Source: an uncultured Pelagibacteraceae bacterium
GTDB taxonomy: Bacteria > Pseudomonadota > Alphaproteobacteria > Pelagibacterales > Pelagibacteraceae
Assembly (NCBI GenBank): GCA_902589155.1
Contig: CACIRV010000006.1
Span: 1-37,118, forward strand
Direction of reading: 5' to 3'
Length of the DNA stretch: 37,118 nt
In this document: one piece after another, positions 21,138-36,490 of the stretch
Numbering within the stretch: position 1 is the first letter of the stretch
How the letters are laid out: the number at the start of each line of letters is the position of its first letter
Notes under the pieces: generated by a model
What the model was told of the DNA's origin: nothing
What the model saw: the letters and a program-made list of their open reading frames with translations, nothing else
Databases searched by the model: none
Program-made: the position numbers and the translations under genes

Positions 21138-21897
21138 AAAATTTATAATTTATTTATATTCTTTTAATACATTAAGAAGAGTTATTCCTTCATTGTTAAG
21201 AATTATGTCAGTTTTTAATTTTCATCAAAAAATTCAAATTATGAATTTTAAAATTTTACTATATTTAGCTTCTTCAATCGACAGAGAAATTTTCTTAAAG
21301 GGCTCTTATGAAACAAATCAAATAAATTATGTTTTGAACATTTTAAGTGAAGACTCATTTGATTATTTTTTCGATGTTGGCGCTTATATAGGTTATTATT
21401 CTTTGGTTGTTAATCATTTAGTTAAAAATACTGCTGCTTTTGAACCTAATAACTTAAATTATTCTAGATTAAAAAAGAATGTTGAAATTAATAAATTTAA
21501 GATTTCTTGTTATAATTATGCTTGTTCAGATAAAAAAGAACAACGCAAGTTATGGTTTACTGATAAAAATAAGAGGGGTGGTTCCTCAGTTCTTACAGTC
21601 GATGACCAGGAATTAAAAAAGTATAACACTAATAAAATTTTTTATGAAACGATAAACTGTATTAAATTAGATGATTTATTCGAATTAACAAATAAAAAAC
21701 TTTTTTTTAAAATTGATGTAGAAAGACATGAATTAAATGTTTTGAATGGAGCTCTTAATCTTTTGTTAAATAATAGTGTCTTTATGCAAATTGAAATTTT
21801 TCCTCACTTACGAGATGAAATTCTAAATTTCCTCAATCAAAAAAATTTTAAGCTTTTAAAAAACATTAATAATGATTATTACCTAAAGAATTTTTAA
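21130..21897 (+). CDS. FkbM-family methyltransferase
   Basis: A 255-residue SAM-dependent methyltransferase. FDVGAYIGYYSLVVNHLVK near 82-100 is the SAM-binding motif I ('DvGAniG.ys'), AAFEPNNLNYSRLKKNVEIN is motif II, and LFFKIDVERHELNVLNGA is the FkbM-type signature ('KiDveG.E..VL.Ga'), with an arginine where many members have glycine. This group often O-methylates sugars on glycans or glycolipids. It is the last gene of the sugar cluster and converges on the recombinase, sharing 4 bases at the 3' end. Methylation of the deoxyhexose made by gmd is an inference from position. Confidence 0.85.
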   Translation: MFRKFIIYLYSFNTLRRVIPSLLRIMSVFNFHQKIQIMNFKILLYLASSIDREIFLKGSYETNQINYVLNILSEDSFDYFFDVGAYIGYYSLVVNHLVKNTAAFEPNNLNYSRLKKNVEINKFKISCYNYACSDKKEQRKLWFTDKNKRGGSSVLTVDDQELKKYNTNKIFYETINCIKLDDLFELTNKKLFFKIDVERHELNVLNGALNLLLNNSVFMQIEIFPHLRDEILNFLNQKNFKLLKNINNDYYLKNF

Positions 21898-22850
21898 ATT
21901 TTAATTTTGTTTAAAGCATTATTTTTAAACAAATTTGCCTCCTTTATATACCTTCTTACCATTTCTGTAGATTTATGACCTGTCATAGCCATGATAGTTC
22001 TTTCTTCCACACCTGACTCTGCAGCTGTAGTAGCAAATCCTGATCTCAAACTGTGTCCTGAGTAGTTTTTGCTATCAATGCCAGCTTCATTTAGATAGTT
22101 TTTGATTATTATAGCTACTGATTGATCAGTTAATCTATTGTTAGATAAGTTAGATCCCTTTGAAAACCTTCTAAATATTGGGCCTTTATTGATTTTTGAT
22201 ATTTTAAGCCATCTCTCTAAAGTTGTTACAGGACAATAGGGGCTTTCCTTTGTATACGGCAAAGCTTTTATTGTACCTTCTCCAAATTGGTCTGTTTTAG
22301 ATTTTTTAACAGTTATTTTAAGTCCTTCATATACAAAATCTAGATCTTCATAATCTAAGGAAATAATTTCATTTCTTCTAAAACCTCCTGAAAATCCAAT
22401 TAATATTATTGATTTATCTCTTAATTTTTTTATATCTGGTGAATTTTGTTCATCTATAACATTAAGAATTTTTCTTAATATATTGATTAATATAGGTTTT
22501 TTTCCTTTTTGAACTGACCCTTTTCTTCGTTTTATTCCTAACAAGTTCTCAACGATTATTGGATGTTTTGTATCTAAATAATGACCTTTCATTTTATGAA
22601 TTACCCCGATAGATACCAGTCTACGTTTGATTGTGCTTAATTTAACATCTTTTGTAGACAAGTGAGTTAAATATAAAGAGATAATTTTTGGATCACTCGG
22701 CAGGCTCTTAAAGCTATTTTTAACACAGAATAAACCAAAATCTTTAAAATCAGACTTATAAGCTCTGACAGTATTATTTGCCTTTGAACTTTGTAAATTC
22801 TTTAAAGTTTCTTCTTGTAGTGTTTTAATATCAGTAACTAAATTTTTCAT
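21894..22850 (-). CDS. Tyrosine recombinase / site-specific integrase
   Basis: A complete 318-residue tyrosine recombinase. The N-terminal SAM-like core-binding domain is at about 10-110 (NTVRAYKSDFKDFGLFC). The catalytic domain has R158 in GGFRRNEI, K185 in KSKTDQ, H266-x-x-R269 in GHSLRSGF, H292 in TGHKS and the nucleophile Y301 in VRRYIKE. All six expected catalytic residues are present, so it should be active. It belongs to a stand-alone integrase group that I associate with 'TGH.S...RRYI.E..LF..N' endings, not clearly XerC, XerD or IntI. It faces away from the cupin gene. An inverted repeat with a 7-base centre begins 10 bases upstream of its start. Its presence between the sugar cluster and the GC-shifted block suggests the region has been moved. 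Confidence 0.93.
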   Translation of the reverse strand: MKNLVTDIKTLQEETLKNLQSSKANNTVRAYKSDFKDFGLFCVKNSFKSLPSDPKIISLYLTHLSTKDVKLSTIKRRLVSIGVIHKMKGHYLDTKHPIIVENLLGIKRRKGSVQKGKKPILINILRKILNVIDEQNSPDIKKLRDKSIILIGFSGGFRRNEIISLDYEDLDFVYEGLKITVKKSKTDQFGEGTIKALPYTKESPYCPVTTLERWLKISKINKGPIFRRFSKGSNLSNNRLTDQSVAIIIKNYLNEAGIDSKNYSGHSLRSGFATTAAESGVEERTIMAMTGHKSTEMVRRYIKEANLFKNNALNKIKI

Positions 22851-24031: not shown

Positions 24032-24931
24032 TTATTGAAAATATTTTAAACTGTAAAATACAACTATTGGAACTGTAATTAATGACATCACCGTAGAAGT
24101 TACAATTACACTTGCTACACTATCTACAACTTTCCTCTCTGAGTACATAGAGCCTACTAAATAAGTTAAAACTGCACTAGGCATCGCAGATTGAATTAAC
24201 AAGACTCCAGCTGCAAACCCATCTAAATTTAAATATCTTATTAATCCTAATCCTATTATGGGTCCTATTATAACTCTCACAGCTCCTAAAATTGATGCTT
24301 TAGTCCAAGAAACAACCTGAAATCTTGATAGAGCTATTCCCAAAGACATTAAAACTAAAAAAATAGTTGTATACGTCAGAAGAAAAGTGGTGTTTTCAAT
24401 GTACCCTGGAACATCCCATTTAAAATACAAAAAGATTACTGATGCTAAAATAGCATAAATTGGAACATTTTTAATTAATATATCCATTGAAAAACTTTTT
24501 TTAGCTAGCAAAACTCCTAATGTAAAATGAAGAAGTATTATTACTGAAGCAACAGCCGAGGCAACTCCTAGGCCACTTGTTCCATAAGCAAAAAGACATA
24601 TAGGGACACCCATATTCCCTGTATTAGGCAGAATTAAAGGAGGCAATTCACTTACGATATCTTTCTTAAGCAAAAACAAAGAGAGCAATCCGACTAATGA
24701 AAAACCAGTAATTATAATCAATGAATAAATAAAGTATTCAATAAATATTTCAAGAGTTATTCCAGTTGTAGTAATCGTATAAAAAATCATTGCTGGAGTT
24801 CCAATATTTCCAGCAAAATTAGTTATAAATTTAGTATCAAAATTTGGGTCTTTTTTACCTAAATAATATCCTACGCCTATTACAAAAAAGACTGGAAATA
24901 GTACGTCTACAAGTTTGAGATAGAGCTCCAT
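24032..24931 (-). CDS. AEC-family transporter (auxin efflux carrier type)
   Basis: A 299-residue hydrophobic protein with about nine or ten membrane segments. The opening PVFFVIGVGYYLGKKDP and the conserved NTGNMGVPICLFAYGTSGL segment near 103-121 (family: 'l.N.gf.GlPl....fG..gl') identify the AEC family. QSAMPSAVLTYLVGSMYSER near 253-272 matches the second conserved half ('a.MP.a....la..y'). Family members export or import small carboxylates and other organic anions across the inner membrane. It is last in the reverse-strand block, its ATG overlapping the stop of the preceding gene (TAATG). In this context a carboxylate linked to DMSP or acyl-CoA breakdown is possible, but the substrate cannot be read from sequence. 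Confidence 0.87.
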   Translation of the reverse strand: MELYLKLVDVLFPVFFVIGVGYYLGKKDPNFDTKFITNFAGNIGTPAMIFYTITTTGITLEIFIEYFIYSLIIITGFSLVGLLSLFLLKKDIVSELPPLILPNTGNMGVPICLFAYGTSGLGVASAVASVIILLHFTLGVLLAKKSFSMDILIKNVPIYAILASVIFLYFKWDVPGYIENTTFLLTYTTIFLVLMSLGIALSRFQVVSWTKASILGAVRVIIGPIIGLGLIRYLNLDGFAAGVLLIQSAMPSAVLTYLVGSMYSERKVVDSVASVIVTSTVMSLITVPIVVFYSLKYFQ

Positions 24932-25938
24932 TAAGCTCTTACATCAGATTTATTAGGTTTTCTCAACTTCTTTTTAAAATTAATAGCAGTTTCAAATTCC
25001 ATGAGACGCTTATGTATAGATCTTAATCTGTTTATTTGTACCCAGTTGTATAGAAAAACATTAAATGCATCTTTAATTTCGCCAAAAGCATTTACTGCCC
25101 TCATCATAATTCCTAAAGTATAGGCTCCTGTAAATAAACCTGGTCCCATAATTAAGAAGGGCACAATTACAAATACTTGTCTGTATAGTATTGACCATAA
25201 ATCAAAATATCCATAATGCAAGAAAAGTCTGTGATAATTAAATTTTATACCGGTAAATAATTTTAAAACAGTTGGTGCTTGAGCATAACCAATTCTATCG
25301 TCCTCACCATAGACAAGTTCTTTCCTAAATGCAGCCTCAGCTTTTTGATTATTATATTCTAATCCAGGTAATTTTATTCCAACAAACCAACTTATTGTAA
25401 GCCCTCCTACGCTAACTAATAAAGCGACCCAAACTAATGAACCTGAAATATTTTCTAAATAAGGCGCAACGACATTTTCTGAAAGTACCCATAAAATAGG
25501 TAAAAATGCTATTAGGGTCATTAAAGCTCTAACAATATCAAGGCCTATATTTTCAACTATATTTGCAAAATCTCTACAATCTTCTTGGATTCTTTGTGAA
25601 GCACCCTCAACTTTTGCATCAACGCTACGCCAATAAGGCATATATGAAAATGTGATAGCTTCTCGCCATCTGAAAGTCCACATCCTAGTAAACCAATTTG
25701 TAAACGACATAGTGGTTACATATGGGATAGCTAAATATAGAAAAAATATTAATCTTTCGTAAAATTTTTCAAGACCCCCTGTCTCTGGTGGTTTTTGCAA
25801 TAAATCATAAAAAGATCCATACCAAGTGTTAAATTGTACAGACAACCATGTTTGAAAAACTATTAAGATTAAGATAAGTGAACCGCCACCATAGCACCAA
25901 TACATCCACTTTTTATCTGTAAAAAAACTACGCCACAT
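24931..25938 (-). CDS. SbmA/BacA-like inner-membrane transporter, short form
   Basis: A 335-residue membrane protein matching the SbmA/BacA family. NTWYGSFYDLLQ (about 37-48), EGASQRIQEDCRDFANIVENIG (111-132), GIKLPGLEYNNQKAEAAFRKELVYGEDD (207-234) and the closing IHKRLMEFE all correspond closely to conserved blocks of E. coli SbmA. SbmA/BacA import peptides and other compounds using the proton gradient and lack the ATPase of the ABC fusion relatives. The protein begins at a point equal to about residue 70 of SbmA (~406 residues), so the N-terminal one or two membrane segments are missing, and the preceding gene ends 3 bases upstream, leaving no room for them. It shares a TAATG overlap with the AEC gene. 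Confidence 0.87.
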   Translation of the reverse strand: MWRSFFTDKKWMYWCYGGGSLILILIVFQTWLSVQFNTWYGSFYDLLQKPPETGGLEKFYERLIFFLYLAIPYVTTMSFTNWFTRMWTFRWREAITFSYMPYWRSVDAKVEGASQRIQEDCRDFANIVENIGLDIVRALMTLIAFLPILWVLSENVVAPYLENISGSLVWVALLVSVGGLTISWFVGIKLPGLEYNNQKAEAAFRKELVYGEDDRIGYAQAPTVLKLFTGIKFNYHRLFLHYGYFDLWSILYRQVFVIVPFLIMGPGLFTGAYTLGIMMRAVNAFGEIKDAFNVFLYNWVQINRLRSIHKRLMEFETAINFKKKLRKPNKSDVRA

Positions 25939-25940
25939 AA

Positions 25941-26225
25941 TTAATCCTTAAGAAAATTGTCTGCATAAGATTTTATAACAAATTCCTTTTTTTTAGGCTC
26001 TATAACAGTATAAGAAATATTATTTGATTTTGCGTATTCAACAGCTTTTTCTTTAGATGAAAATTTAAGAATTATTTCACCAAGAGTATCTGTAGAAGTT
26101 TCCCAGCCCATTAGGGGGTTAATAGAACTATCTTTAGTTCTAAATTCTAAAACCCATTTTTTTAATTTACCCCTACCCGACTGCATTGCTGTTTTTGTTG
26201 GAATATAAATTTTAGCCTTCTTCAT
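25941..26225 (-). CDS. NDUFS4-like NADH dehydrogenase accessory protein
   Basis: A 94-residue protein of the complex I 18-kDa (NDUFS4 / ETC_C1) family. AKIYIPTKTAMQSGRGKLKKWVLEF near the N-terminus ('a.Iy.P.ktamQSG....k.W.lef'), LMGWETSTDTLGEIILKFSSKEKAVEYAKSNNISYTV and a terminal KSYADNF are diagnostic. In mitochondria and alphaproteobacteria it is a stabilising subunit near the NADH-oxidising arm. I start it at the ATG 26225; a TTG at 26249 would add eight residues overlapping dmdA and has no family support. It lies 2 bases after dmdA, an unusual place far from the nuo genes. Confidence 0.88.
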   Translation of the reverse strand: MKKAKIYIPTKTAMQSGRGKLKKWVLEFRTKDSSINPLMGWETSTDTLGEIILKFSSKEKAVEYAKSNNISYTVIEPKKKEFVIKSYADNFLKD

Positions 26226-26227
26226 AA

Positions 26228-27334
26228 TTACAAAATAGGTAAATTGCAAATCTCTCCAGAAATCGAATTATTGTTAAGTTTAATTTGGAATTTTTCTGAA
26301 ATGTTACAAAATTCTTTTTTAACCATTGCAATACCAACTACTTTATTAAAATTTGGTGAATAAGCAGCAGATCTTAATTGGCCTATTACATTATCTTTTA
26401 AATCAAGCATAGGAATGCTTTGGGAAACATTAATAGACTTTGTTTCAATCTTTACACCCATAAGTTTTCTAGTAATCCCTTTTTCTTTGATTTTTTTTAA
26501 ACTTTCTTTTCCAAAAAAAACTATATCAGAATTTAAATCAACATATTTATCAAATCCACATTCAAAAGGGTTGTCAAAAATGTCCATATCGCTTCCATAT
26601 GATAACAATCCCCCTTCTATTCTTTCAGGATGATTAGGGGCTCCTGGTTTTAAATTGAATTCGTTACCAATTTCAAAAAAATAATCATAAAGCTCTAAAG
26701 CACCTTCTGGGTTGTCAGTATGAATTTCAAATCCTCCTTGCTTAGAATATCCTGAACGAGAAATTAAATATTTTTTATTATTGAAAGAAAAATAATCAAA
26801 TCTAAAAAATTTTAAATTATTAATTTCTTTACCAAACACTTTTTCCATTATTTTTATAGATTTTGGTCCTTGTATAGCTAAAGTGTCAATTTTTGCTTCA
26901 AAAACATTAACATTGAATTTTTTTGCAGAAGCTATTCCTTTTGCAAATAACAATACATCTGAGTCAGCTATACAAACTCTCCATCTATTTTCCTCTAGTT
27001 TATAAATTAATGGGTCATTAATCAGACCTCCATCTGAATCTACTAATGGCGCATAATAACAACTGCCTATCTTTGAATTTGACAAATTTCTACAAGTCAT
27101 TAACTGAACTAATTCTGAGGAATTTTTTCCTGTAATCTCAATTTCTCTTTGCACTGATACATCCCAAATTTGAACATGTTCTTTTAAATGATTATATTCT
27201 TCCTCAGGTGATGAAAAAGTTGTGGGTAATAACATATGATTGTAAACCGTAAAGCTTTTTACTCCATGTTTTTCTAGTCTTGAAGTAAATGGAGTTCCTC
27301 TTAATCTTCTAGATCTTGTAATAATAGTTTTCAT
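26228..27334 (-). CDS. dmdA: Dimethylsulfoniopropionate demethylase DmdA (GcvT family)
   Basis: A 368-residue member of the GcvT aminomethyltransferase family. It resembles DmdA more than GcvT: VYNHMLLP (30-37), EEEYNHLKEHVQIWDVS (44-60), QLMTCR (77-82), RSGYSKQGGFE (193-203), ERIEGGLLSYGSDM (237-250) and NPFECG (255-260). GcvT proteins usually carry a DD pair where this one reads GGLINDP (102-108); the ND form is what I recall of DmdA. DmdA moves one methyl group from DMSP to tetrahydrofolate, giving methylmercaptopropionate. The neighbouring acyl-CoA ligase and DmdC-like dehydrogenase support this. It overlaps the hydrolase by four bases. Non-DmdA paralogues of this family exist in marine bacteria, so an alternative methylated substrate is possible. 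Confidence 0.77.
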   Translation of the reverse strand: MKTIITRSRRLRGTPFTSRLEKHGVKSFTVYNHMLLPTTFSSPEEEYNHLKEHVQIWDVSVQREIEITGKNSSELVQLMTCRNLSNSKIGSCYYAPLVDSDGGLINDPLIYKLEENRWRVCIADSDVLLFAKGIASAKKFNVNVFEAKIDTLAIQGPKSIKIMEKVFGKEINNLKFFRFDYFSFNNKKYLISRSGYSKQGGFEIHTDNPEGALELYDYFFEIGNEFNLKPGAPNHPERIEGGLLSYGSDMDIFDNPFECGFDKYVDLNSDIVFFGKESLKKIKEKGITRKLMGVKIETKSINVSQSIPMLDLKDNVIGQLRSAAYSPNFNKVVGIAMVKKEFCNISEKFQIKLNNNSISGEICNLPIL

Positions 27335-28107
27335 TTTTTTAAGAATTCATTAATTTTTTCTCTCATTTCAAAAGCATTTTCTAAAATTATCATATGTCCA
27401 CAATTTTTTATTATATGTATTTTTGAATTGGGAATTAATCCAGCAAATTCTTTCCCTTTTTCAACTTTAATCATCTTATCTAATTCTCCCAAAATAAAAA
27501 AAGTTGAACAATTAATCTTTTTTGCTGCTTTTGCTCCATTTTTATAATTATTACAAGCTATCAAATCTACAGCTAATACCTCTCTTATTTCCCTAGCAGA
27601 ATTTAGAATCTTCTGTAAGGGATTCCCTCCAATAAATTGTTTAGATTTTCCATAGCCCCATTTCATCATTAGATTTAAAGACTCCATATCACCTGAGTAA
27701 GCTAAATCAATAAGACTTTTATTCACTGGAATTTCATAAGAACCAGAAACAAAAATAATGTTCTTTAAATTTTTAGGATATCTACTGGCATACTCTAAAG
27801 CTACCAAACATCCTTGAGAGTGACCAACTAAAGAAAGATCTTTTATGCCTATTTTATTAATAACTTTTTCTAACCATACTGCCATTTCTTCTATTGTTTT
27901 TAAACATTCACCCTCTGAGTTCCCGTGGCCTGGAAAGTCTATAGCAAATACATTAAAATTTTGATCAGACAAATATTGAGTTGTTAGAGACCATACTACA
28001 TGCGATTGACCGCTACCATGTAATAATATTATAGAATGTTTTTTTGGATCAAACTCTGTCCCGGTGTCCATCAAGAAAACTTCATTACTGTTAATTAAAA
28101 AATTCAA
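27331..28107 (-). CDS. Alpha/beta hydrolase
   Basis: A 258-residue alpha/beta-hydrolase fold. LLHGSGQSHVVW (about 28-39) is the oxyanion strand, DFPGHGNSEG follows, the nucleophile is S97 in VGHSQGC, the acid is the aspartate of LGELDKMI, and the histidine is in NCGHMIILE near the C-terminus. All three catalytic residues are present. The substrate is unknown. Between a crotonase and dmdA it could be a thioesterase or esterase of the same pathway, which is inference. The start is TTG at 28107; a later ATG (28071) would remove the first beta strand. It overlaps dmdA by four bases. Confidence 0.85.
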   Translation of the reverse strand: MNFLINSNEVFLMDTGTEFDPKKHSIILLHGSGQSHVVWSLTTQYLSDQNFNVFAIDFPGHGNSEGECLKTIEEMAVWLEKVINKIGIKDLSLVGHSQGCLVALEYASRYPKNLKNIIFVSGSYEIPVNKSLIDLAYSGDMESLNLMMKWGYGKSKQFIGGNPLQKILNSAREIREVLAVDLIACNNYKNGAKAAKKINCSTFFILGELDKMIKVEKGKEFAGLIPNSKIHIIKNCGHMIILENAFEMREKINEFLKK

Positions 28108-28137
28108 TTTAAGCCCTAATATTATAATTATTGATTA

Positions 28138-28947
28138 TTATTTATCTTGCCAGCTGGGTTTACGTTTCTCTATGAAGGCACCTATTCCTTCTTCAGCGTC
28201 AAGTTTTAACATATTTTCTACCATAACATTCGATGCATAATCATATGCTTCGGACAATGTCATATCAATTTGTTTATAGAATGCTTCTTTCCCGATTTTT
28301 AAAGTCATAGCTGATTTTTTAGATATTTTTTGAGCCGTTTCTAATGTTTGTTTTTTTAATAAAATTCCATCCACTGCTTGATTAATTAAACCAATTCTTT
28401 CCGCTTTATCTGCAGATATCAAATCTCCAGTTAAAAGCATTTCCATAGAATGTTTATTAGATATATTTCTTGATACTGCTACCATTGGTGTAGAACAAAA
28501 TAGACCAATATTTACACCAGGTGTAGCAAATGTTGCTGTTCTACTTGCATAAGCTAAATCACAACTAGCAACTAATTGACAGCCTGCTGCTGTTGCTACA
28601 CCTGCAACTTCTGCAATTACTGGTTTTGGGCAATTAACTATAGTTTGCATTAACTTAGAGCATTTGCCCATTATTTCTTTAAAATATTTTCTTCCTTTAT
28701 CAGGATTTTTCCGAGCACTTGTTAACTCTTTTAAATCATGACCAGCTGAAAAAGTAGGACCATCAGCTGAAATTATAATCACTCGTATTTGTTTATTATT
28801 AATAGACTCATCTAACGCTGACTGAATATTAAACATCATATCTTCTGATAAAGCGTTATGATTATGAGGGTTATTTAGTGTAAGAAAGAAAATTCCATCA
28901 GCGCTGATAGAAGTTTTCAAAATTTTGTTATCTTTTTTAAAATTCAT
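28138..28947 (-). CDS. Crotonase-family protein, ECHDC3-like, lacking both catalytic glutamates
   Basis: A 269-residue crotonase/enoyl-CoA hydratase-fold protein. The CoA-binding elements are SAGHDLKEL (67-75) and GVATAAGCQLVASCDLAYAS (116-135). Hydratases carry glutamates at two sites 20 residues apart; here they are Q124 and G144 (in ATPGVNIGL). The sequence block ATPGVNIGLFCSTPMVA and the ending GAFIEKRKPSW are those I recall of the ECHDC3 branch. Thus simple hydration of an enoyl-CoA is doubtful, and it is not a normal DmdD. It sits 7 bases after the OsmC gene and 30 bases before the hydrolase. A hydrolase, isomerase or carrier role is open. Confidence 0.87.
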   Translation of the reverse strand: MNFKKDNKILKTSISADGIFFLTLNNPHNHNALSEDMMFNIQSALDESINNKQIRVIIISADGPTFSAGHDLKELTSARKNPDKGRKYFKEIMGKCSKLMQTIVNCPKPVIAEVAGVATAAGCQLVASCDLAYASRTATFATPGVNIGLFCSTPMVAVSRNISNKHSMEMLLTGDLISADKAERIGLINQAVDGILLKKQTLETAQKISKKSAMTLKIGKEAFYKQIDMTLSEAYDYASNVMVENMLKLDAEEGIGAFIEKRKPSWQDK

Positions 28948-28953
28948 AATAAT

Positions 28954-29403
28954 TTAATTAATTAAAACTTTTACTTCATCAGATAATGAATTAGCAATAA
29001 AACAGTACCTGTGGGCCCTATCTTGAACCTTTTTTATTTCATCAGGATCAATTGTAAATTTATCAGAAAATGAAACCTTAGGATTCAATTCTAATTGAAT
29101 AACTGACATTTTACCTTTAGAATTTTTTCCTAAAGTTGCAATCGCATTATCTTTATATTTAATTATAGGCCATTTCATTTTTGCTGCTAAAGCTAAAAAT
29201 GTCATCATATGGCAGCTACTTAAAGAAGCTGCTAATGTTTGTTCTGGATTACTATTTAATTTATCACCTTTCCAATCAGGAGCGGAGTCACCTATAATTT
29301 TTATTTTAGGTGTAAAAGTAATCTCATGCTGATTAGAATAATTTCCTGGTGTCATTTTTCCATTACCAAGCTCCCATATTAAATCTATAGATATTTTTGA
29401 CAT
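28954..29403 (-). CDS. OsmC-family protein
   Basis: A 149-residue OsmC/Ohr-fold protein. The two redox-type cysteines are visible, one in LAASLSSCHMMTFLALAAK (near 55-73) and one in AHRYCFIANSL near 130-140. The fold's strand-helix order and the usual length of about 140-150 agree. Members reduce organic hydroperoxides, though many have other thiol-based roles. Placed four bases after an acyl-CoA ligase and before a crotonase, it could protect the sulfur-compound pathway against oxidation or act on a thiol intermediate such as methanethiol. The latter is speculation. Confidence 0.85.
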   Translation of the reverse strand: MSKISIDLIWELGNGKMTPGNYSNQHEITFTPKIKIIGDSAPDWKGDKLNSNPEQTLAASLSSCHMMTFLALAAKMKWPIIKYKDNAIATLGKNSKGKMSVIQLELNPKVSFSDKFTIDPDEIKKVQDRAHRYCFIANSLSDEVKVLIN

Positions 29404-29407
29404 AAGC

Positions 29408-31036
29408 TTACTTAATTTCTTTAGCTTTTTTTCTTAGCTCAAATTTTTGAATTTTCCCCGTTGACGTTTTTGGGAGATCACAAAATTCTATCTTTTTTGG
29501 TACTTTAAAATTAGCCAATGTTTCCTTACAAAAACTTATTAGTTCCTTTTCGGTGGCTGGTTTATCTTTTACAATTTCTATGAAAGCACAAGGAACTTCT
29601 CCCCATTTATCATCTGGTTTTGCAACAACAGCTGCTATTGATACAGATGGGTGTTTGGCTAAAGTATTCTCAATCTCGATGGAAGATATATTTTCACCTC
29701 CCGAAATAATTATATCTTTTGATCTATCTTGAATTTTTACATAACCATCCGGATGCATTACTGCTAAATCTCCCGAGTGGAACCAACCATCTTTCATAGC
29801 TTTTTCTGTTGCTTCTTTATCTTTAAAATAACCTTTCATTACTACATTTCCTTTAATCATAATCTCGCCTATTGTTTTTCCATCATTTGGAACTTCTTTC
29901 ATTGTTTCAGGATTCATAACAGTTATACCCTCTGTGTTTGGATATCTTACTCCCTGTCTAGCTTTAATTTCATTTTGTTTATCTTCATCAAATTCATTCC
30001 AATCATCATTCCAGGCGCATTGTGTTACGTGTCCATATGTTTCAGTTAAACCGTAGACATGCATTACTTCAAAACCAAGTTGTTTCATCTTTTTAAATAT
30101 TATACTTGGTGGTGGAGCTCCCGCTGTTAAGACATAAACTTTTTGTTTTAATTTTCTTTTATCATTCTCCGCTGCACCTGTTATCATATTTAATACTATT
30201 GGTGCACCTCCGAAATGGGTAATGTTATATTTTTCAATTAGTTCAAATATTTTTTTAATATCAATATTACGTAAACAAATTGTTCTTCCATTTAACATTG
30301 GAACAGTCCAAGGATAACACCAGCCATTACAATGAAACATTGGAACAATAGTTAAAAAATTAAGTCCATTAGGCATATTCCATGCTGTAGCACTGCCAGT
30401 AGACATTAAATATGCCCCTCTATGATGATAAACTACTCCTTTTGGATTTCCTGTAGTTCCAGATGTGTAGCTTAGTGATATTGCTTGCCACTCATCATCA
30501 GGCATTTTCCAATCAAAATCTTTATTTCCTGTATTTAAAAACTCCTCATACTCTAAATCGCCAATTTTTTCCAATTTTGATTGATCTGCATGCTTATCGT
30601 TAATATCTATAATGGTAATTTTTTTTTTTAAAGAATTTAAAGCTTTTTTAACTTCAACGTGAAGCTGTCTATCTACAACCAAAACTTTTGCTTCACTGTG
30701 CTCTAGTATATATAATATTGTTTTAGCATCTAACCTGATGTTAATAGTATTTAATACTCCTCCTGTCATAGGAACTGAGTAATGAGCTTCAAATATCTCT
30801 GGGGTATTGAATGCTAGAAAAGAAACTGTATCACCTTTTTTGATTCCTATCTTTGTTAAAGCACTCGCAAATTTTACACATCTTTCATAAACATCTTTCC
30901 ATTTATATTTTCTATCTTCGTATACTATTGCTTCGTAATTTGGGTATATGTCCTTAACTCTAGTCAAAAATGATAAGGGCGATAAAGGTACAAAATTCGC
31001 TTTATTTTTGCTTAAATTGGTTTCGTAAGAATTCAT
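29408..31036 (-). CDS. AMP-dependent acyl-CoA ligase (DmdB-like by context)
   Basis: A 542-residue ANL-superfamily enzyme. The P-loop SLSYTSGTTGNPKGVVYHHRGA (near 188-209), a YGLTETYGHVTQC motif, GWFHSGDLAV with the adenylate-binding aspartate, IISGGENISSIEIE, and the catalytic lysine in KTSTGKIQKF near the end are complete. It belongs to a medium-chain-type group starting 'N.YE..L..N.ANF.PLSPLSFL'. In the DMSP demethylation route, DmdB activates methylmercaptopropionate to its CoA ester; the neighbours dmdA and a DmdC-like dehydrogenase make this the simplest job. Sequence alone would also allow short or medium fatty acids. It begins 1 base after the dehydrogenase stop. Confidence 0.85.
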   Translation of the reverse strand: MNSYETNLSKNKANFVPLSPLSFLTRVKDIYPNYEAIVYEDRKYKWKDVYERCVKFASALTKIGIKKGDTVSFLAFNTPEIFEAHYSVPMTGGVLNTINIRLDAKTILYILEHSEAKVLVVDRQLHVEVKKALNSLKKKITIIDINDKHADQSKLEKIGDLEYEEFLNTGNKDFDWKMPDDEWQAISLSYTSGTTGNPKGVVYHHRGAYLMSTGSATAWNMPNGLNFLTIVPMFHCNGWCYPWTVPMLNGRTICLRNIDIKKIFELIEKYNITHFGGAPIVLNMITGAAENDKRKLKQKVYVLTAGAPPPSIIFKKMKQLGFEVMHVYGLTETYGHVTQCAWNDDWNEFDEDKQNEIKARQGVRYPNTEGITVMNPETMKEVPNDGKTIGEIMIKGNVVMKGYFKDKEATEKAMKDGWFHSGDLAVMHPDGYVKIQDRSKDIIISGGENISSIEIENTLAKHPSVSIAAVVAKPDDKWGEVPCAFIEIVKDKPATEKELISFCKETLANFKVPKKIEFCDLPKTSTGKIQKFELRKKAKEIK

Positions 31037-31037
31037 T

Positions 31038-32798
31038 TTAGTTAAATTTTGCTTTCATAATAGAGTCGCTACCAGCTTTAGCTGACTTATAGTGTGCTTC
31101 TACTCTAGGTAAAATTTTATCAAAATAATAGTTGGCAGTATTAACTTTCTCTTCATAAAAATTTTTATTTTCATTTAGTCTATCCAAACTTACTTTTGTA
31201 ATTTTAAACCAAGAATAAGCAAGAGAAACATACCCTAATACTTTTAAAAAATCATTACATGCTGAACTTACATCGTCTTTTTTATTTTTATTTTTTTCTT
31301 CAAGCCACTTAGCAAATTCCTCTAAATGATTGATACTGACTCCTAATATTTTTGAAAATTTTTCTAATTCTGGTTTTCCATTTTCCTCTTTTATTTCTTT
31401 TTTAATAATAGATATGAAATTTGATAAGACTTTATTATTTAAAACTTTTCGAAAAACTAAATCTATAGCTTGAACTGAATTTGTCCCTTCATATATAGGT
31501 GTTATCCTATTATCTCTGAATAATTGTTCTATTCCTTGATCTTTAGTATAGCCATACCCCCCAAATATTTGAATTGCCTCATTTGTAATTTCAGTTCCCA
31601 TATCAGTAAAAAAAGATTTTACGACAGGTGTAATTAAAGAAACCAATTCTTCAGCCGATTTTCTGATTTTTTCATTGGAATGATTTAAGCTCACATCTAT
31701 TTGTTGGGATAGCCAAAAAGCTAAAGATCTTTGACCTTCTATAATTGATTTCATGCTTAATAAACTTCTTCTAATATCGGCATGTTTAATGATTTCATCT
31801 GTTTGATTGTTTTTATTATTATTTGACTTACCTTGCTTTCTTTCTTTAGCATATGATAAAGAATTTTGATAAGCGGTTTCAGCAATTCCAAGTCCCTGTA
31901 TGCCAACTATAATCCTTTCAAGATTCATCATTGTAAACATTGAGCTTAAGCCCTTATTCTCTTCTCCTATAAGAAAACCTTTAGCATTGTCGAAATTAAG
32001 CACACAGGTTGGTGATCCTTTTATTCCCATTTTGCTCTCAATAGATAAAGTGTTAACTCCATTTTTTGTACCTACAGATCCATCATCATTTACATTGAAC
32101 TTTGGAACCAAAAATAAACTTATTCCCTTTGTTCCAGCTGGCCCACCTGGGACCTTAGCTAGAACAAGATGAATAATATTTTCAGTTAAGTCATGATCTC
32201 CTGAAGTTATAAAAATTTTTTGACCTGTAAGTAAAAAGGAACCATCTTTTTGTTTTGATGCTTTAGTTTTAATTAATCCCAAATCTGTTCCACATTGAGA
32301 CTCTGTTAAACACATAGTTCCGCTCCATTTTCCTTCAACTATTTTTGGAAGAAATTTATCTTTAATTTTTTCATTAGCGTGATGAAGAATACAATTGTAT
32401 GCTCCAATACTTAATTCACTATATAACTTAAAAGATAAACTTGCCGATGATAACATTTCCTCAAAAAAAGTACTGACTGTTTTTGGCATGCCTTGACCAC
32501 CGTACTTGGGATCACATGATAAAGATGTCCATCCATCATTAATAAATTTTGAATAAGCTTCTTTGTAACCAGGAGGAGATCTAACAATTCCATTTTCATA
32601 AACGCATGGATTTTCATCACCAACTTGGGCTAAGGGATGAATGATTTCTTGATTCATTTTAGCAGCTTGATCTAATATATCTTTTACTAAATCAGAATTA
32701 ATGTCTTTAAATTTTTCTATTTCATTATAGTTTTCATTGTCCTTAAGATTGTTAAATAAGAACATCATTTCATCAATTGGAGCATTATATATAGTCAT
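31038..32798 (-). CDS. Acyl-CoA dehydrogenase with extra C-terminal domain (DmdC-like)
   Basis: A 586-residue flavoprotein. The FAD and substrate elements CLTESQCGTDLGLIKTKA (163-180) and GQKIFITSGDHDL (192-204), a GLGIAETAYQNSLSYAKERKQG helix (302-323) and FGGYGYTKDQGIEQLFRDNRITPIYEGTN (412-440) are present, with the catalytic-base glutamate at E437. Unlike ordinary ~380-residue enzymes it has an added N-terminal stretch and a C-terminal helical domain (about 455-586), the architecture of methylmercaptopropionyl-CoA dehydrogenase DmdC. It would oxidise methylmercaptopropionyl-CoA to methylthioacryloyl-CoA and pass electrons to ETF. Other substrates are possible for this subfamily. Confidence 0.87.
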   Translation of the reverse strand: MTIYNAPIDEMMFLFNNLKDNENYNEIEKFKDINSDLVKDILDQAAKMNQEIIHPLAQVGDENPCVYENGIVRSPPGYKEAYSKFINDGWTSLSCDPKYGGQGMPKTVSTFFEEMLSSASLSFKLYSELSIGAYNCILHHANEKIKDKFLPKIVEGKWSGTMCLTESQCGTDLGLIKTKASKQKDGSFLLTGQKIFITSGDHDLTENIIHLVLAKVPGGPAGTKGISLFLVPKFNVNDDGSVGTKNGVNTLSIESKMGIKGSPTCVLNFDNAKGFLIGEENKGLSSMFTMMNLERIIVGIQGLGIAETAYQNSLSYAKERKQGKSNNNKNNQTDEIIKHADIRRSLLSMKSIIEGQRSLAFWLSQQIDVSLNHSNEKIRKSAEELVSLITPVVKSFFTDMGTEITNEAIQIFGGYGYTKDQGIEQLFRDNRITPIYEGTNSVQAIDLVFRKVLNNKVLSNFISIIKKEIKEENGKPELEKFSKILGVSINHLEEFAKWLEEKNKNKKDDVSSACNDFLKVLGYVSLAYSWFKITKVSLDRLNENKNFYEEKVNTANYYFDKILPRVEAHYKSAKAGSDSIMKAKFN

Positions 32799-35021
32799 CT
32801 AATTTACTAACGGTTTTCCTGTTTTCAGAGTATGATTAATTCTTTTTTGAGTTTTATCTGTTTCAATTAATTTCATAAAGCTATCTAGTTCTAGTTTATA
32901 CATTTGATCTTCTGTTACCTCTTTACCCAGAGTAGTATTTCCTCCACTCAAAACATATGCTAATTCTTTACCAACATCCATACCATGATCTAAAATTTTC
33001 TTTTTATTGTATAAATCTTCAAGAATTTTTATCATTTTTTTTCTCACTTGTTCTCCTGATAAATTAAATTCACATTTTTGGGGTGTAGCTAAATCTTTAT
33101 TTTTCAAGATAAAAGACCTTGCCGCAGGCAATAGATTATTTCTATTAATTATTACTTCATGGTTGTTATCTAGAAATAAAAGAGGCTTTGCTTCCTGCGG
33201 TGAAGATGCAGTTTTAGCATAGCCAATTATATCAAAAACTTTTAATGGTGCAAAATCAGGATCATTTTTAGCTTTATCTGTCTGCGTCCACCTCCATAGA
33301 AGTTCTTTACAACCACCGCCAGCAGGAACTAATCCAACTATTGTCTCTACTAAACCCATAACAATATTTGTATGAGACACTACATAATTGCTTTGTAATA
33401 ACACTTCCTCACCTCCACCAATTGCTAGACCTGAAGGCGCTGATATGACAGGATTTTCACAATATTTTAAATGCTTACAAGTTTCTTGAAAGTATTTTAC
33501 AAATTTTTCTACCGATTTTAAATCTCTTTTTTTAACAAACTCCATAACATAATTTAAATTCACACCCGCAGAAAATTGCATACTTTCATTTATAATAATT
33601 AAAGGTTTATCAGTTGCTTTCATTAATGCATCCATTGAATTATAATCAAGAGCATTTGCTTTAGTATTAAACTCAACTATATTAAATTCTTTAAATCTAA
33701 AAATTTCTGCTGAGTCATTTTTGTCGGTTGTAACTACTAATTTTTTTGCTTTCGCTAATGTTTCAATGTTTGTATATTTTTGTCTTTCGCCATAAAATTT
33801 CTTTAAATTTTTCTTTTTTAAATTTTCCAAAAAATGATTATCTTTTACTTCTCCGATTTTAGTGAAAAAATGATCAACACCTATAGACTCTAGCATTTCA
33901 AAAGGTCCCATAGACCAATTAAATCCAAGTCTTAACGCTTCATCTATGTCATTATATTCATTAGTTATTTGAGGAACTAAAGAAGAAGAGTATAAAATAA
34001 TCTTTGAAATAACCGACCAAGCATAAGAACCATACTTATCATCACGATTTATCAATTTTGAAAGATCTATTTTTTTTATTTGAAGATCAATTTTTTTTGA
34101 AGGGAAATATTCATTTTTTGATATATCAAGAGCTTCTAAAATTTTTTTTCCATCAGATTTATTAACTCTATAAAATCCACCTTTTCCTTTTCTGCCTGTA
34201 TAGCCAGTTTCTATCAATTTTTTTATTATTGGAAGATCTTCAACAACTTTTTGAAATTTGTCATGCTTAGGTAATTCTTTTTTAAAACTTTTTAATACAT
34301 CAGACATTAAGTCTATACCTATTAAATCGTACAAAGCAAAAACTCCTGTTTTTGGTATACCCATAGGACGTCCAAAAATTGCATCTGCTTCTTCTACTGA
34401 CAAATTCATTTTTATTGCTTCAGTCAAAGCAACTTGCATTGCATAAACACCAATTCTATTACCTAAAAAACCAGGTGTATCTCCACAAATAATTACACCT
34501 TTTCCCAATTTCTCTTCACAAAAATTTTTTAACAAATTAATTTTATCTTTATTATTATTTTGTTCTCTAACGATCTCTAGTAAGCCCATATACCTAACTG
34601 GATTAAAAAAATGCGTAATACAAAAATCTTTTTTGTCATTTTTACTTAACTTTTCAGAAAGTATCTTTAAAGGTATAGTCGAGGTATTAGATGAAACTAT
34701 AGAATCTATCTTTCTTTTCTTAAAGATTTGTTCATAAATTTTATGTTTGATATCAATTCTTTCTACAACAGCTTCAATAATCCAGTCAGCTTTTGAAATA
34801 ATGTCAAAGTCATCAGTAATGTTGCCTATTTTTAGAGAGTCAATTTTAGACTTTTCAAACAGTAAGGGTGGTCTAGATTTTAATATTCGTTCTTTTGCTT
34901 TTTCTACAATTTCTGTTTTTAAATCAAGAAGGGTAACTGGAATATTAGCATTGCATAAATGTGCTGCTATACCGCTTCCCATTGTGCCAGAACCAACTAT
35001 TGCTACATTTTTAATCTTCAT
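32799..35021 (-). CDS. 3-hydroxyacyl-CoA dehydrogenase / enoyl-CoA hydratase fusion (FadN-type order)
   Basis: A 740-residue bifunctional beta-oxidation enzyme. The N-terminus is the dehydrogenase: NAD motif AIVGSGTMGSGIAAHL (7-22), SSNTSTIPL and the catalytic pair H137 (THFFNP) and E149. A second helical dehydrogenase domain reaches about 410. The crotonase domain follows (about 430-740), with SAGVNLN and both catalytic glutamates, E539 (IGGGEEVLL) and E559 (GLVETIVGLVPAGGG), 20 residues apart. This dehydrogenase-first order is that of FadN, opposite to FadB/FadJ. It is first in the reverse block. Since the other crotonase lacks its glutamates, this domain may supply hydration of the enoyl-CoA. 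It touches the dehydrogenase gene with no gap. Confidence 0.9.
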   Translation of the reverse strand: MKIKNVAIVGSGTMGSGIAAHLCNANIPVTLLDLKTEIVEKAKERILKSRPPLLFEKSKIDSLKIGNITDDFDIISKADWIIEAVVERIDIKHKIYEQIFKKRKIDSIVSSNTSTIPLKILSEKLSKNDKKDFCITHFFNPVRYMGLLEIVREQNNNKDKINLLKNFCEEKLGKGVIICGDTPGFLGNRIGVYAMQVALTEAIKMNLSVEEADAIFGRPMGIPKTGVFALYDLIGIDLMSDVLKSFKKELPKHDKFQKVVEDLPIIKKLIETGYTGRKGKGGFYRVNKSDGKKILEALDISKNEYFPSKKIDLQIKKIDLSKLINRDDKYGSYAWSVISKIILYSSSLVPQITNEYNDIDEALRLGFNWSMGPFEMLESIGVDHFFTKIGEVKDNHFLENLKKKNLKKFYGERQKYTNIETLAKAKKLVVTTDKNDSAEIFRFKEFNIVEFNTKANALDYNSMDALMKATDKPLIIINESMQFSAGVNLNYVMEFVKKRDLKSVEKFVKYFQETCKHLKYCENPVISAPSGLAIGGGEEVLLQSNYVVSHTNIVMGLVETIVGLVPAGGGCKELLWRWTQTDKAKNDPDFAPLKVFDIIGYAKTASSPQEAKPLLFLDNNHEVIINRNNLLPAARSFILKNKDLATPQKCEFNLSGEQVRKKMIKILEDLYNKKKILDHGMDVGKELAYVLSGGNTTLGKEVTEDQMYKLELDSFMKLIETDKTQKRINHTLKTGKPLVN

Positions 35022-35083
35022 ATTTTTATCTTTACAAGAAAATTAGCTGTAGGAAAATCTTTAATATTGTTCATATTCAAATT

Positions 35084-35089
35084 ATTATA
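35084..35089 (-). promoter_or_regulatory. Possible -10 element of the reverse acyl-CoA/dmdA block
   Basis: Read on the reverse strand this is a perfect TATAAT, 62 bases upstream of the ATG at 35021, in the 101-base divergent gap to the GMC-like gene. No good -35 is visible 16-18 bases before it. The gap is the only intergenic space before the ten-gene block. Confidence 0.3.
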
Positions 35090-35122
35090 GTGTAGAAATC
35101 TCCTTTTAGAAAATAATTAATT

Positions 35123-36490
35123 ATGGAACTACAAACTGTCATTATAGGAACTGGATTATCAAGTTTGTCCTTCATAGACAAGTACCTAGAAAAAAATAAA
35201 AAAATAGATATTATTTCTCCAGATAAAGATTTTTTATATGACTCAAATAGTGCCAATATACATTTACTTCAAAACTTGCCGTATCATATAATCAAAAATA
35301 AAAATAAAATTAATAATTATTTTGAGTCAAATAACATTGCGGTCAACAAAAGTTCAAAAATTCTTGGTATCTTAGGGCTTGGTGGTTTATCAAACTATTG
35401 GGGAATGCAAATAGATAATAATATAATTGATGATATTAAATATCTAAGCAGTAAAACAAGAAAAGATATAATTGATTCCTTTTTTGAAATATTAAGAAAA
35501 TTTAAATTAAAAGGGAATTTTAAATTTAAAAATAAAGAGTATTTAAATAATTACAAAGTTGATGCTTTTTTTAATAAATTATTGAAAAAAAAATTTAATG
35601 ATCTATTGGTTTCTAAACCTATTCTTGCATACTCGAAAAAACAAAAATTAACCGCCGATTTATACTTAAGGAGATATATAAATAAAAAAAAAATAAAAAT
35701 TTACAACTTGTCTGTTCAAGAAATTTTTTATAATAAAAATAAAATTACAATTAAGTGTGTTGACGCAAATAAAAAAGAAAAAGTAATCTTTGCGAAGAAA
35801 GTTATTTTTGGGTGTGGAACAATTGTTACTACAAAAATTATTCTTAAATTTTTAAAAATTAAAAATGAGGTTAAGATTAAACATCACCCAAGACTCGTTT
35901 CTGCTTTTTTTTCAAAAAGAAAAATTCAAAATTTAGAAAAATTGCAGGCTTCACAACTTAATATTCGTTCTAAAAGTAAAGTGAATTCCTTCATTATTGA
36001 TCTAAGAACAGGAAACGAGACAATTGTGGAGTCCGTTATTAGACTAAAAAAGTTCTTAATGCCATTTAAATTTATTTTGAATTTATTTAAAAATCATTTA
36101 ATATTTTCTAATATTTTATTAGACTCAAAGTTTAGTAATTTATTCATTAAAGTTTCAAAAAATAAAACCTACATATACTCAAAGAAAAGTAATTTAGAAG
36201 AAATCTTAAGAAAAATTCACATCAGTTTCTTAAGAATTTTAAAACAAGAAAATTTAGTTTTTCCATTTTCAAATAATTTTTTTGGAGGATATGGAAACGA
36301 CTTCCATTACTTTGGTACTATACCAATATCAAAAAATAAAAAAAAATTATCAGTAAATGAAAATTGTCAATTAAATGGATATCCAAATATATACATTATT
36401 GACGGATCGGTTTTAGATTTTAAAGAAAATAAATATCCAGTTGGACTAGTTATGGCCAATGCTAGAAGAGTAGCAAAAATATTTAAATAA
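35123..36490 (+). CDS. FAD-dependent oxidoreductase, GMC-like
   Basis: A 455-residue flavoprotein. The N-terminal dinucleotide motif is TVIIGTGLSSLSFIDKYL (5-22), with LGLGGLSNYWGMQ near 83-95 as the FAD-binding loop seen in GMC-type proteins. The C-terminal FHYFGTIPI, then NIYIIDGSVLDFKENKYPVGLVMANARRVA near 422-451, corresponds to the GMC C-terminal signature ('n.yv.DgSvlP......p..t..AlA.r'). The middle is divergent and lysine-rich. Many such proteins act on sugars or alcohols. It starts a forward cluster with a DegT-type aminotransferase 3 bases downstream, which suggests a sugar or nucleotide-sugar pathway. Confidence 0.78.
   Translation: MELQTVIIGTGLSSLSFIDKYLEKNKKIDIISPDKDFLYDSNSANIHLLQNLPYHIIKNKNKINNYFESNNIAVNKSSKILGILGLGGLSNYWGMQIDNNIIDDIKYLSSKTRKDIIDSFFEILRKFKLKGNFKFKNKEYLNNYKVDAFFNKLLKKKFNDLLVSKPILAYSKKQKLTADLYLRRYINKKKIKIYNLSVQEIFYNKNKITIKCVDANKKEKVIFAKKVIFGCGTIVTTKIILKFLKIKNEVKIKHHPRLVSAFFSKRKIQNLEKLQASQLNIRSKSKVNSFIIDLRTGNETIVESVIRLKKFLMPFKFILNLFKNHLIFSNILLDSKFSNLFIKVSKNKTYIYSKKSNLEEILRKIHISFLRILKQENLVFPFSNNFFGGYGNDFHYFGTIPISKNKKKLSVNENCQLNGYPNIYIIDGSVLDFKENKYPVGLVMANARRVAKIFK

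Follow-up and report, generated by a model that had tools for sequence, protein, structure and literature searches.

The DmdD enzyme of Ruegeria pomeroyi hydrates methylthioacryloyl-CoA (MTA-CoA), upon which methanethiol (MeSH) is released, and then itself hydrolyses the CoA ester; without one of its two catalytic glutamates it is inactive, while loss of the other slows MeSH release approximately 88,000-fold and abolishes hydrolysis (PMC3660561). AcuH is described as the more common hydratase (PMC5395565). Pelagibacter ubique, which assimilates the sulfur of dimethylsulfoniopropionate (DMSP) via MeSH, is reported in PMC5069961 to be without DmdD orthologues, with no enzyme assigned to the MTA-CoA step and alternate enzymes "hypothesized". 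The current study examines a window of 37,118 nucleotides (the whole stretch of DNA analysed, from contig CACIRV010000006.1 of assembly GCA_902589155.1) from an uncultured member of the Pelagibacteraceae (genome G000, 778 kb, 70% complete). It contains a seven-gene cassette in the order FadN-DmdC-ligase-OsmC-crotonase-hydrolase-DmdA (Table 1), in which a FadN-type fusion protein and an alpha/beta hydrolase are proposed as a replacement for DmdD. In this study, g1 denotes the genus of the window and g2 and g4 other genera of the same family (g4 appears to be Pelagibacter), while G numbers denote genomes and L numbers loci.

Comparison with described systems

The core of the cassette is already published for SAR11: the subgroup Ia set of dmdA, mhpC, fadD and mmgC (PMC3160333) is matched in the window by DmdA, the hydrolase, the ligase and the dehydrogenase, and the gene order in the legend given there is the order found around dmdA in g4. 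The window cassette differs from this set in having FadN, OsmC and an ECHDC3-like crotonase as well and in occupying a different chromosomal place, the g4 cluster lying between LeuB- and Asd-like genes (names read by eye). The roseobacter operon dmdC-dmdD-ligase-dmdA (Phaeobacter inhibens pPGA1_262) is expected to carry out the same first three reactions as the window, but it has a DmdD with both glutamates and is without FadN, the window-type hydrolase or OsmC. The roseobacter plasmid module Lrp-GcvT-like-OsmC-crotonase-acyl-CoA synthetase encodes an OsmC, a crotonase and a ligase that are 49%, 62% and 51% identical to those of the window; however, its GcvT-like protein falls outside the DmdA clade, and no DmdC, FadN or hydrolase is annotated in it. 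This module was seen on Phaeobacter and Loktanella plasmids (L209, L210, L213 and L215), and plasmid pP30_b also carries a cluster of genes for a selenium-binding protein (presumably of the methanethiol-oxidase family), a rhodanese, a metallo-beta-lactamase (MBL) hydrolase, a crotonase, a synthetase and a GcvT-like protein. The fadNAE genes of Bacillus encode a FadN-type 3-hydroxyacyl-CoA dehydrogenase/crotonase system, and the FadN of the window has the same domain order and catalytic residues, while no thiolase lies beside it.

Proposed pathway and conservation of the cassette

On balance, it is considered somewhat probable from the sequence comparisons that the cassette encodes DMSP demethylation and demethiolation, with FadN and the hydrolase replacing the missing DmdD and MeSH passing to methionine. 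As judged from known members of their families, DmdA would transfer a methyl group of DMSP to tetrahydrofolate, leaving methylmercaptopropionate (MMPA), the ligase would convert MMPA to MMPA-CoA, and the DmdC-like dehydrogenase would convert MMPA-CoA to MTA-CoA. The crotonase domain of FadN would then hydrate MTA-CoA, MeSH would leave, and the hydrolase would cleave the thioester of the malonate semialdehyde-CoA that is left; the two proteins would thus share the two jobs of the single-protein DmdD, and MetY would turn the MeSH into methionine. In the open-access literature, covered by titles and the beginnings of abstracts and exclusive of subscription papers, neither FadN nor the hydrolase was found to have been proposed for the MTA-CoA step. 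The FadN-hydrolase pair as a DmdD replacement in g1 is offered as a specific proposal, which would reduce the candidates for this step, in one SAR11 genus, to two named proteins.

The complete seven-gene order was found in 15 of the 21 g1 and g2 loci taken around DmdA matches. Two of the other six loci are cut by contig ends and four have neither OsmC nor the crotonase; in three of the latter, an extra gene separates the hydrolase from DmdA. The recurrence of the order in 15 loci indicates that it is not due to chance. The seven genes are present or absent as one block: among 101 g1 genomes, the hydrolase was found in 26, FadN in 25 and DmdC in 24, with all three together in 23, while NDUFS4, the neighbour of DmdA in the window, was found in 69. 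DMSP demethylation in g1 would be a trait encoded by a block that is either there or missing at a single site, and about one in four of the genomes sampled have it (24-26 of 101, many of them incomplete).

The identity of DmdA is supported by a score of 489.4 bits to NF009133 (curated cut-off 410) and by its best match in the PDB, 3tfh, which we take to be the crystallised P. ubique DmdA. In a tree of 90 rows, it falls inside a SAR11 clade of 48 rows that includes 3tfh (support 98/91), while the four other GCV_T matches of G000 and the GcvT-like proteins of the roseobacter plasmids fall outside the DmdA clade; long outgroup branches leave the deep root of the tree unsure, but not the SAR11 clade itself. 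An earlier note, made from the sequence of this DNA alone, had described the gene as dmdA-like and pointed to phylogeny as the check on this, and both the cut-off and the tree place the protein among DmdA.

A candidate for the missing DmdD step

Every match to PF00378 (E up to 1e-4) sits in the cassette in all 17 cassette-bearing g1 genomes searched, 15 of which have FadN and the ECHDC3-like crotonase, one (G110) FadN and a split crotonase, and one (G163, 84% complete) FadN alone. In G114, one of the 15, the cassette lies on two contigs, and the contig with FadN, which reads tRNA-Pro-FadN-DmdC to its end, is taken to be the other half of the cassette. FadN has an N-terminal 3HCDH domain and a C-terminal crotonase domain with their catalytic residues in place: E539 and E559 of the hydratase and H137 and E149 of the dehydrogenase are invariant across nine aligned sequences, and both glutamates together with the dehydrogenase His/Glu were recognised by motif in all 25 FadN proteins of the fetched dmd loci. 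The ECHDC3-like crotonase, in contrast, has Gln and Gly at the two Glu positions in all 16 sequences and both glutamates in none; its best PDB match is 2vx2 (ECHDC3), and it is 24% identical to P. inhibens DmdD over 212 residues. Since both catalytic glutamates (the equivalents of Glu121 and Glu141) are missing, it was ruled out as a DmdD or AcuH. The census and the glutamate pairs together make FadN the sole standard crotonase-family hydratase in these g1 genomes, unless assembly gaps hide another. The confinement of all crotonase matches to the cassette in 17 of 17 genomes, with both glutamates in the FadN domain only, is new, as is the observation that the hydrolase adjoins either DmdA or MetY.

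In Sun et al. 2011 (PMC3160333), the hydrolase appears under the name mhpC with the other SAR11 DMSP genes, and no function is given for it in the text available. Its Ser97, Asp210 and His238 are conserved throughout two alignments, one of 10 sequences and one of 14. Among 197 genomes of the family, 101 have a DmdA match, 104 a hydrolase match (one per genome at the threshold used) and 96 have both. The hydrolase lies less than 2 kb from DmdA in 81 of the 104, in the fetched loci mostly between the ligase and DmdA; nine further genomes have it with no DmdA match listed for the contig or for the genome, and 14 g4 genomes carry a distant form (45-48% identical) located elsewhere. Twelve of these 14 were fetched (L305-L316), and MetY is directly upstream of the hydrolase, 20 bases away, in all 12; the g4 MetY is approximately 60% identical to a protein of G482 that NCBIfam identifies as O-acetylhomoserine aminocarboxypropyltransferase. 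Outside the family, the hydrolase was found in 105 further genomes of the class, and in all 20 that were fetched (L285-L304) MetY is directly upstream on the same strand and within 76 bases. FadN joins the MetY-hydrolase cluster in five of the 20 (from three families), and each of these five genomes has a DmdA above the cut-off (5 of 11 DmdA-positive versus 0 of 9 DmdA-negative genomes; hypergeometric 0.03, calculated by hand, uncorrected for kinship and with loci chosen by the authors), and in G482 and G378 the MetY-hydrolase-FadN genes are divergent from DmdA. No MetY was found in the fetched stretches in which the hydrolase is near DmdA.

MetY forms methionine from MeSH and O-acetylhomoserine (PMC5069961). 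A hydrolase whose neighbour is either the demethylase or the enzyme that consumes MeSH would fit best between the two, which is an independent reason for interest in it at the MTA-CoA step. The MetY-hydrolase pair, adjacent in all 32 loci (L285-L304 and L305-L316), also seems to be widespread in the Alphaproteobacteria, and no function assigned to the pair was found.

Alternative explanations

Several observations weigh against the proposed pathway, some of them general and others in favour of a particular alternative. The crotonase census includes three genomes of 17 that are at least 90% complete and fourteen below this, with G000 at 70%. In the g2 (n=3) and g4 (n=4) genomes searched, at least one further crotonase occurs beyond the dmd locus, and in g4 FadN itself lies away from the dmdA locus; the extra crotonases limit the sole-hydratase argument to the genus of the window.

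The alternative that survives best, although doubtful, is a short-chain acyl-CoA beta-oxidation operon (FadD-FadE-FadN), to which DmdA and the hydrolase would be secondary or merely attached as passengers. The family names are generic, and FadN, DmdC and the ligase all belong to broad acyl-CoA families. The length of the dehydrogenase (approximately 590 amino acids) and its PF12806 domain fit DmdC but are not exclusive to it, and phmmer gives 559 bits to its nearest PDB entry, 8png, versus 528 bits to 6ijc, which we take to be a DmdC, so that the protein is as near to other acyl-CoA dehydrogenases as to 6ijc. The ligase scores 855 bits to PRK08162 (cut-off 677) and 270-273 bits to PDB entries 6ihk/6ijb, and it is below the NCBIfam cut-off for 3-(methylthio)propionyl-CoA ligase (339 versus 822 bits); it is therefore classed as a PRK08162 synthetase that may work like DmdB. 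Thiolase is present in 28 of 31 genomes, G000 has a single match on another contig, with which ordinary beta-oxidation would be possible, and the distant family member G054, for which no DmdA match was found, has FadN-DmdC-ligase-hydrolase, in keeping with a wider role in acyl-CoA metabolism. However, FadN and DmdC nearly always accompany the hydrolase in g1 (see the counts above), and thiolase is absent among the ten genes of the block and unlinked to the cassette, being found in 7 of 7 cassette-free versus 14 of 17 cassette-bearing g1 genomes. In addition, the presence of MetY and MetF as neighbours in other lineages suggests the use of methyl groups and MeSH. In three other SAR11 loci (L066, L068 and L069), DmdC and the ligase are separated by a gene of one cluster, which Pfam identifies in L069 as a methylene-tetrahydrofolate reductase.

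It is also possible, but unlikely, that the hydrolase serves MetY in the handling of MeSH or O-acetylhomoserine, for example by releasing MeSH from S-methyl thioesters, and that the malonate semialdehyde CoA ester is cleaved by another enzyme or spontaneously. In both fetched sets (20 of 20 and 12 of 12), MetY adjoins the hydrolase, and 9 of the 20 genomes outside the family have no DmdA over the cut-off, which suggests that the original role of the hydrolase was probably broader than DMSP. MetY can also use sulfide. On the other hand, the hydrolase is within 2 kb of DmdA in most hydrolase-bearing genomes of the family, and the stretches fetched from these hold no MetY.

Another explanation, which is improbable, is that the substrate of DmdA in the window's clade is not DMSP but another methylated sulfonium or ammonium compound. 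For DmdA, W171 is given as DMSP-specific and 99S, E178 and Y180 as folate-binding (PMC7487153); an inferred offset of 26 makes these W197, E204 and Y206 in the 3tfh index, while the equivalence of 99S with S122 is unsure. The window's DmdA retains E204 and has Cys, Tyr and His at 122, 197 and 206. Its sub-clade comprises 30 rows in the tree (support 100/99) and 43 rows of the same type in the full alignment, where column 122 is Cys in 43 of 43 rows, column 197 Phe or Tyr in 43 of 43 and column 206 His in 36 of 43. These changed columns would be in keeping with another substrate. However, Tyr at 197 also occurs in roseobacter DmdA rows, so residue 197 alone does not exclude DMSP; moreover, the protein passes the DMSP demethylase cut-off and the other cassette genes fit MMPA. 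A second DmdA paralogue, 43-45% identical, was seen at L035, L036 and L258 (g4 genomes G109 and G158) and at L267 (G422), beside genes for a GcvT-like protein, a flavin mononucleotide (FMN) 2-hydroxyacid dehydrogenase and a thiamine-diphosphate enzyme and near an ABC transporter; the domains were read in L267 and the other loci were matched by clustering or by eye. As a guess, its substrate could be a 2-hydroxy-acid relative of DMSP.

An oxidative form of demethiolation is equally improbable. In this variant FadN would hydrate MTA-CoA, and its nicotinamide adenine dinucleotide (NAD)-dependent domain would oxidise the product before MeSH leaves, yielding an S-methyl malonyl thioester-CoA from which the hydrolase would free MeSH, leaving malonyl-CoA (or malonate). 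If this were true, the carbon of DMSP would not be lost as acetaldehyde and CO2 but would feed lipid synthesis in the form of malonyl-CoA, and the MetY-adjacent hydrolase of other genomes would free MeSH from S-methyl thioesters.

Extent of the cassette

The earlier note had described a block of ten reverse genes and suggested that all ten act together. The ten minus-strand open reading frames (ORFs; from the ORF listing) span 24032-35021, and their order and spacing are as described, the widest gap being 30 bases (28107/28138); the gene names given then also agree with the Pfam and NCBIfam domain searches that provide the names in Table 1. The ten genes are, however, two units: the seven-gene cassette and a separate NDUFS4-SbmA-AEC unit. 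FadN, OsmC, the crotonase and the hydrolase share the presence or absence of DmdA, the ligase and DmdC, and to this extent the suggestion holds. It fails for NDUFS4, SbmA and AEC, which split off from the block in close relatives: they are intact in 20 of 20 fetched cassette-free relatives, with none of the seven cassette genes in the stretch. Absence of DmdA from these 20 was judged from a genome-wide DmdA search in 13 and from the lack of a hydrolase, DmdC or FadN match in seven; in L165, the NDUFS4 ORF was missed by clustering and recovered by tblastn. In cassette-free relatives, a divergent Na+/H+ antiporter gene (Pfam on one copy) precedes NDUFS4.

A ten-gene operon as a conserved unit is therefore ruled out, and it is very improbable that all ten genes form one functional DMSP operon, as the tight spacing (DmdA-NDUFS4 ORF gap of 0-6 bases in 17 of 19 fetched collinear relatives, with overlapping ORF calls in the other two) is set against the 20 cassette-free relatives, the inversion of the NDUFS4 side relative to DmdA in L047, L048 and L082, and the fetched loci of other SAR11 genera that carry the dmd cluster without NDUFS4-SbmA-AEC. 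The best explanation is that NDUFS4-SbmA-AEC is functionally unrelated to the cassette, although the three genes may be transcribed together with it, behind it. The NDUFS4 ORF is listed from a TTG at 26249 that overlaps DmdA, while an ATG at 26225 lies two bases past the DmdA stop and the matches of relatives mostly begin at query residue 6-9; the true start is most likely this ATG. Promoter-like sites (72 versus 61.2 by chance, standard deviation 8.7) and terminator-like sites (5 versus 3.9, standard deviation 2.3) are near chance and uninformative on transcription, and Rfam at gathering thresholds found one tRNA in the whole window and no RNA switch at the block.

Table 1. Features of the block and its upstream flank, in window coordinates
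Feature	Position	Strand	Basis
FadN-type fusion, 740 amino acids, 3-hydroxyacyl-CoA dehydrogenase (N-terminal) and crotonase (C-terminal); proposed MTA-CoA hydratase	32799..35021	-	Pfam/NCBIfam; catalytic residues
DmdC-like acyl-CoA dehydrogenase (candidate MMPA-CoA dehydrogenase), 586 amino acids	31038..32798	-	PF12806 C-terminal domain; phmmer to PDB
Acyl-CoA synthetase, DmdB candidate	29408..31036	-	NCBIfam PRK08162
OsmC-family protein, accessory	28954..29403	-	Pfam; two-cysteine motif
ECHDC3-like crotonase (PRK08139) without the catalytic Glu pair	28138..28947	-	PDB match 2vx2; Gln and Gly at the Glu positions
Alpha/beta hydrolase, proposed CoA-thioester hydrolase	27331..28107	-	Ser97/Asp210/His238; adjoins DmdA or MetY
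DmdA, DMSP demethylase family	26228..27334	-	NF009133 score; tree
NDUFS4-like, first gene of the separate unit, outside the cassette	25941..26225	-	PF04800
SbmA/BacA-like transporter, separate unit	24931..25938	-	PRK12369, 457 bits versus cut-off 385
AEC-type permease (Mem_trans), separate unit	24032..24931	-	PF03547
Intergenic region ahead of FadN; tRNA-Pro of relatives absent in the window	35022..35122	.	Comparison with relatives

Accessory genes

The two-cysteine motif of OsmC is present in 16 of 16 sequences. In G422, a genome of another family, OsmC and the ECHDC3-like crotonase are again neighbours of a DmdA, while neither was found in the 20-kb stretches fetched around dmdA of other SAR11 genera. 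Since they are absent from these stretches and from some cassette carriers, they are regarded as accessory, and they probably deal with side reactions or with thiol or peroxide stress. Their repeated occurrence with such genes, in G422 and in the roseobacter plasmid module, speaks for a genuine connection with methyl-sulfur or methyl-nitrogen compounds but does not single out a reaction. At L045 (G110), one of the 15 loci with the seven-gene order, the ECHDC3-like crotonase is broken in two pieces, and the gene may be dispensable.

Chromosomal site

A tRNA-Pro(TGG) gene ends at most 15 bases ahead of FadN in 21 of 23 cassette loci examined and at most 15 bases ahead of NDUFS4 in each of the 20 cassette-free loci. 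The pattern is broken at two cassette loci: L039, which is the window's closest relative, and L084, where the contig begins inside FadN. The window and L039 have a different gene pair on the left flank (35123-36490, with no Pfam match, and a DegT-family aminotransferase), so that side seems to have been rearranged there. No repeat or dedicated integrase marking a mobile element was seen at the site, where no repeat-directed search was made, and no plasmid in PLSDB carried the hydrolase at E 1e-12. A tyrosine recombinase gene (21894-22850) lies near the AEC permease and holds this position in g1 genomes with and without the cassette as well as in several g4 genomes; as it is equally beside cassette-free loci, it is no sign of a dedicated cassette integrase.

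In a tree of flanking genes from 22 cassette-bearing and 20 cassette-free loci, cassette status requires five changes, and starred branches force four of them. SbmA appears to be a mosaic gene, so that gain and loss of the cassette are not separated in this tree. In the best aligned piece, SbmA (24931-25938) is 91-93% identical to L071, L098 and L099 versus 65-75% to other relatives, a pattern that suggests gene exchange at the SbmA gene.

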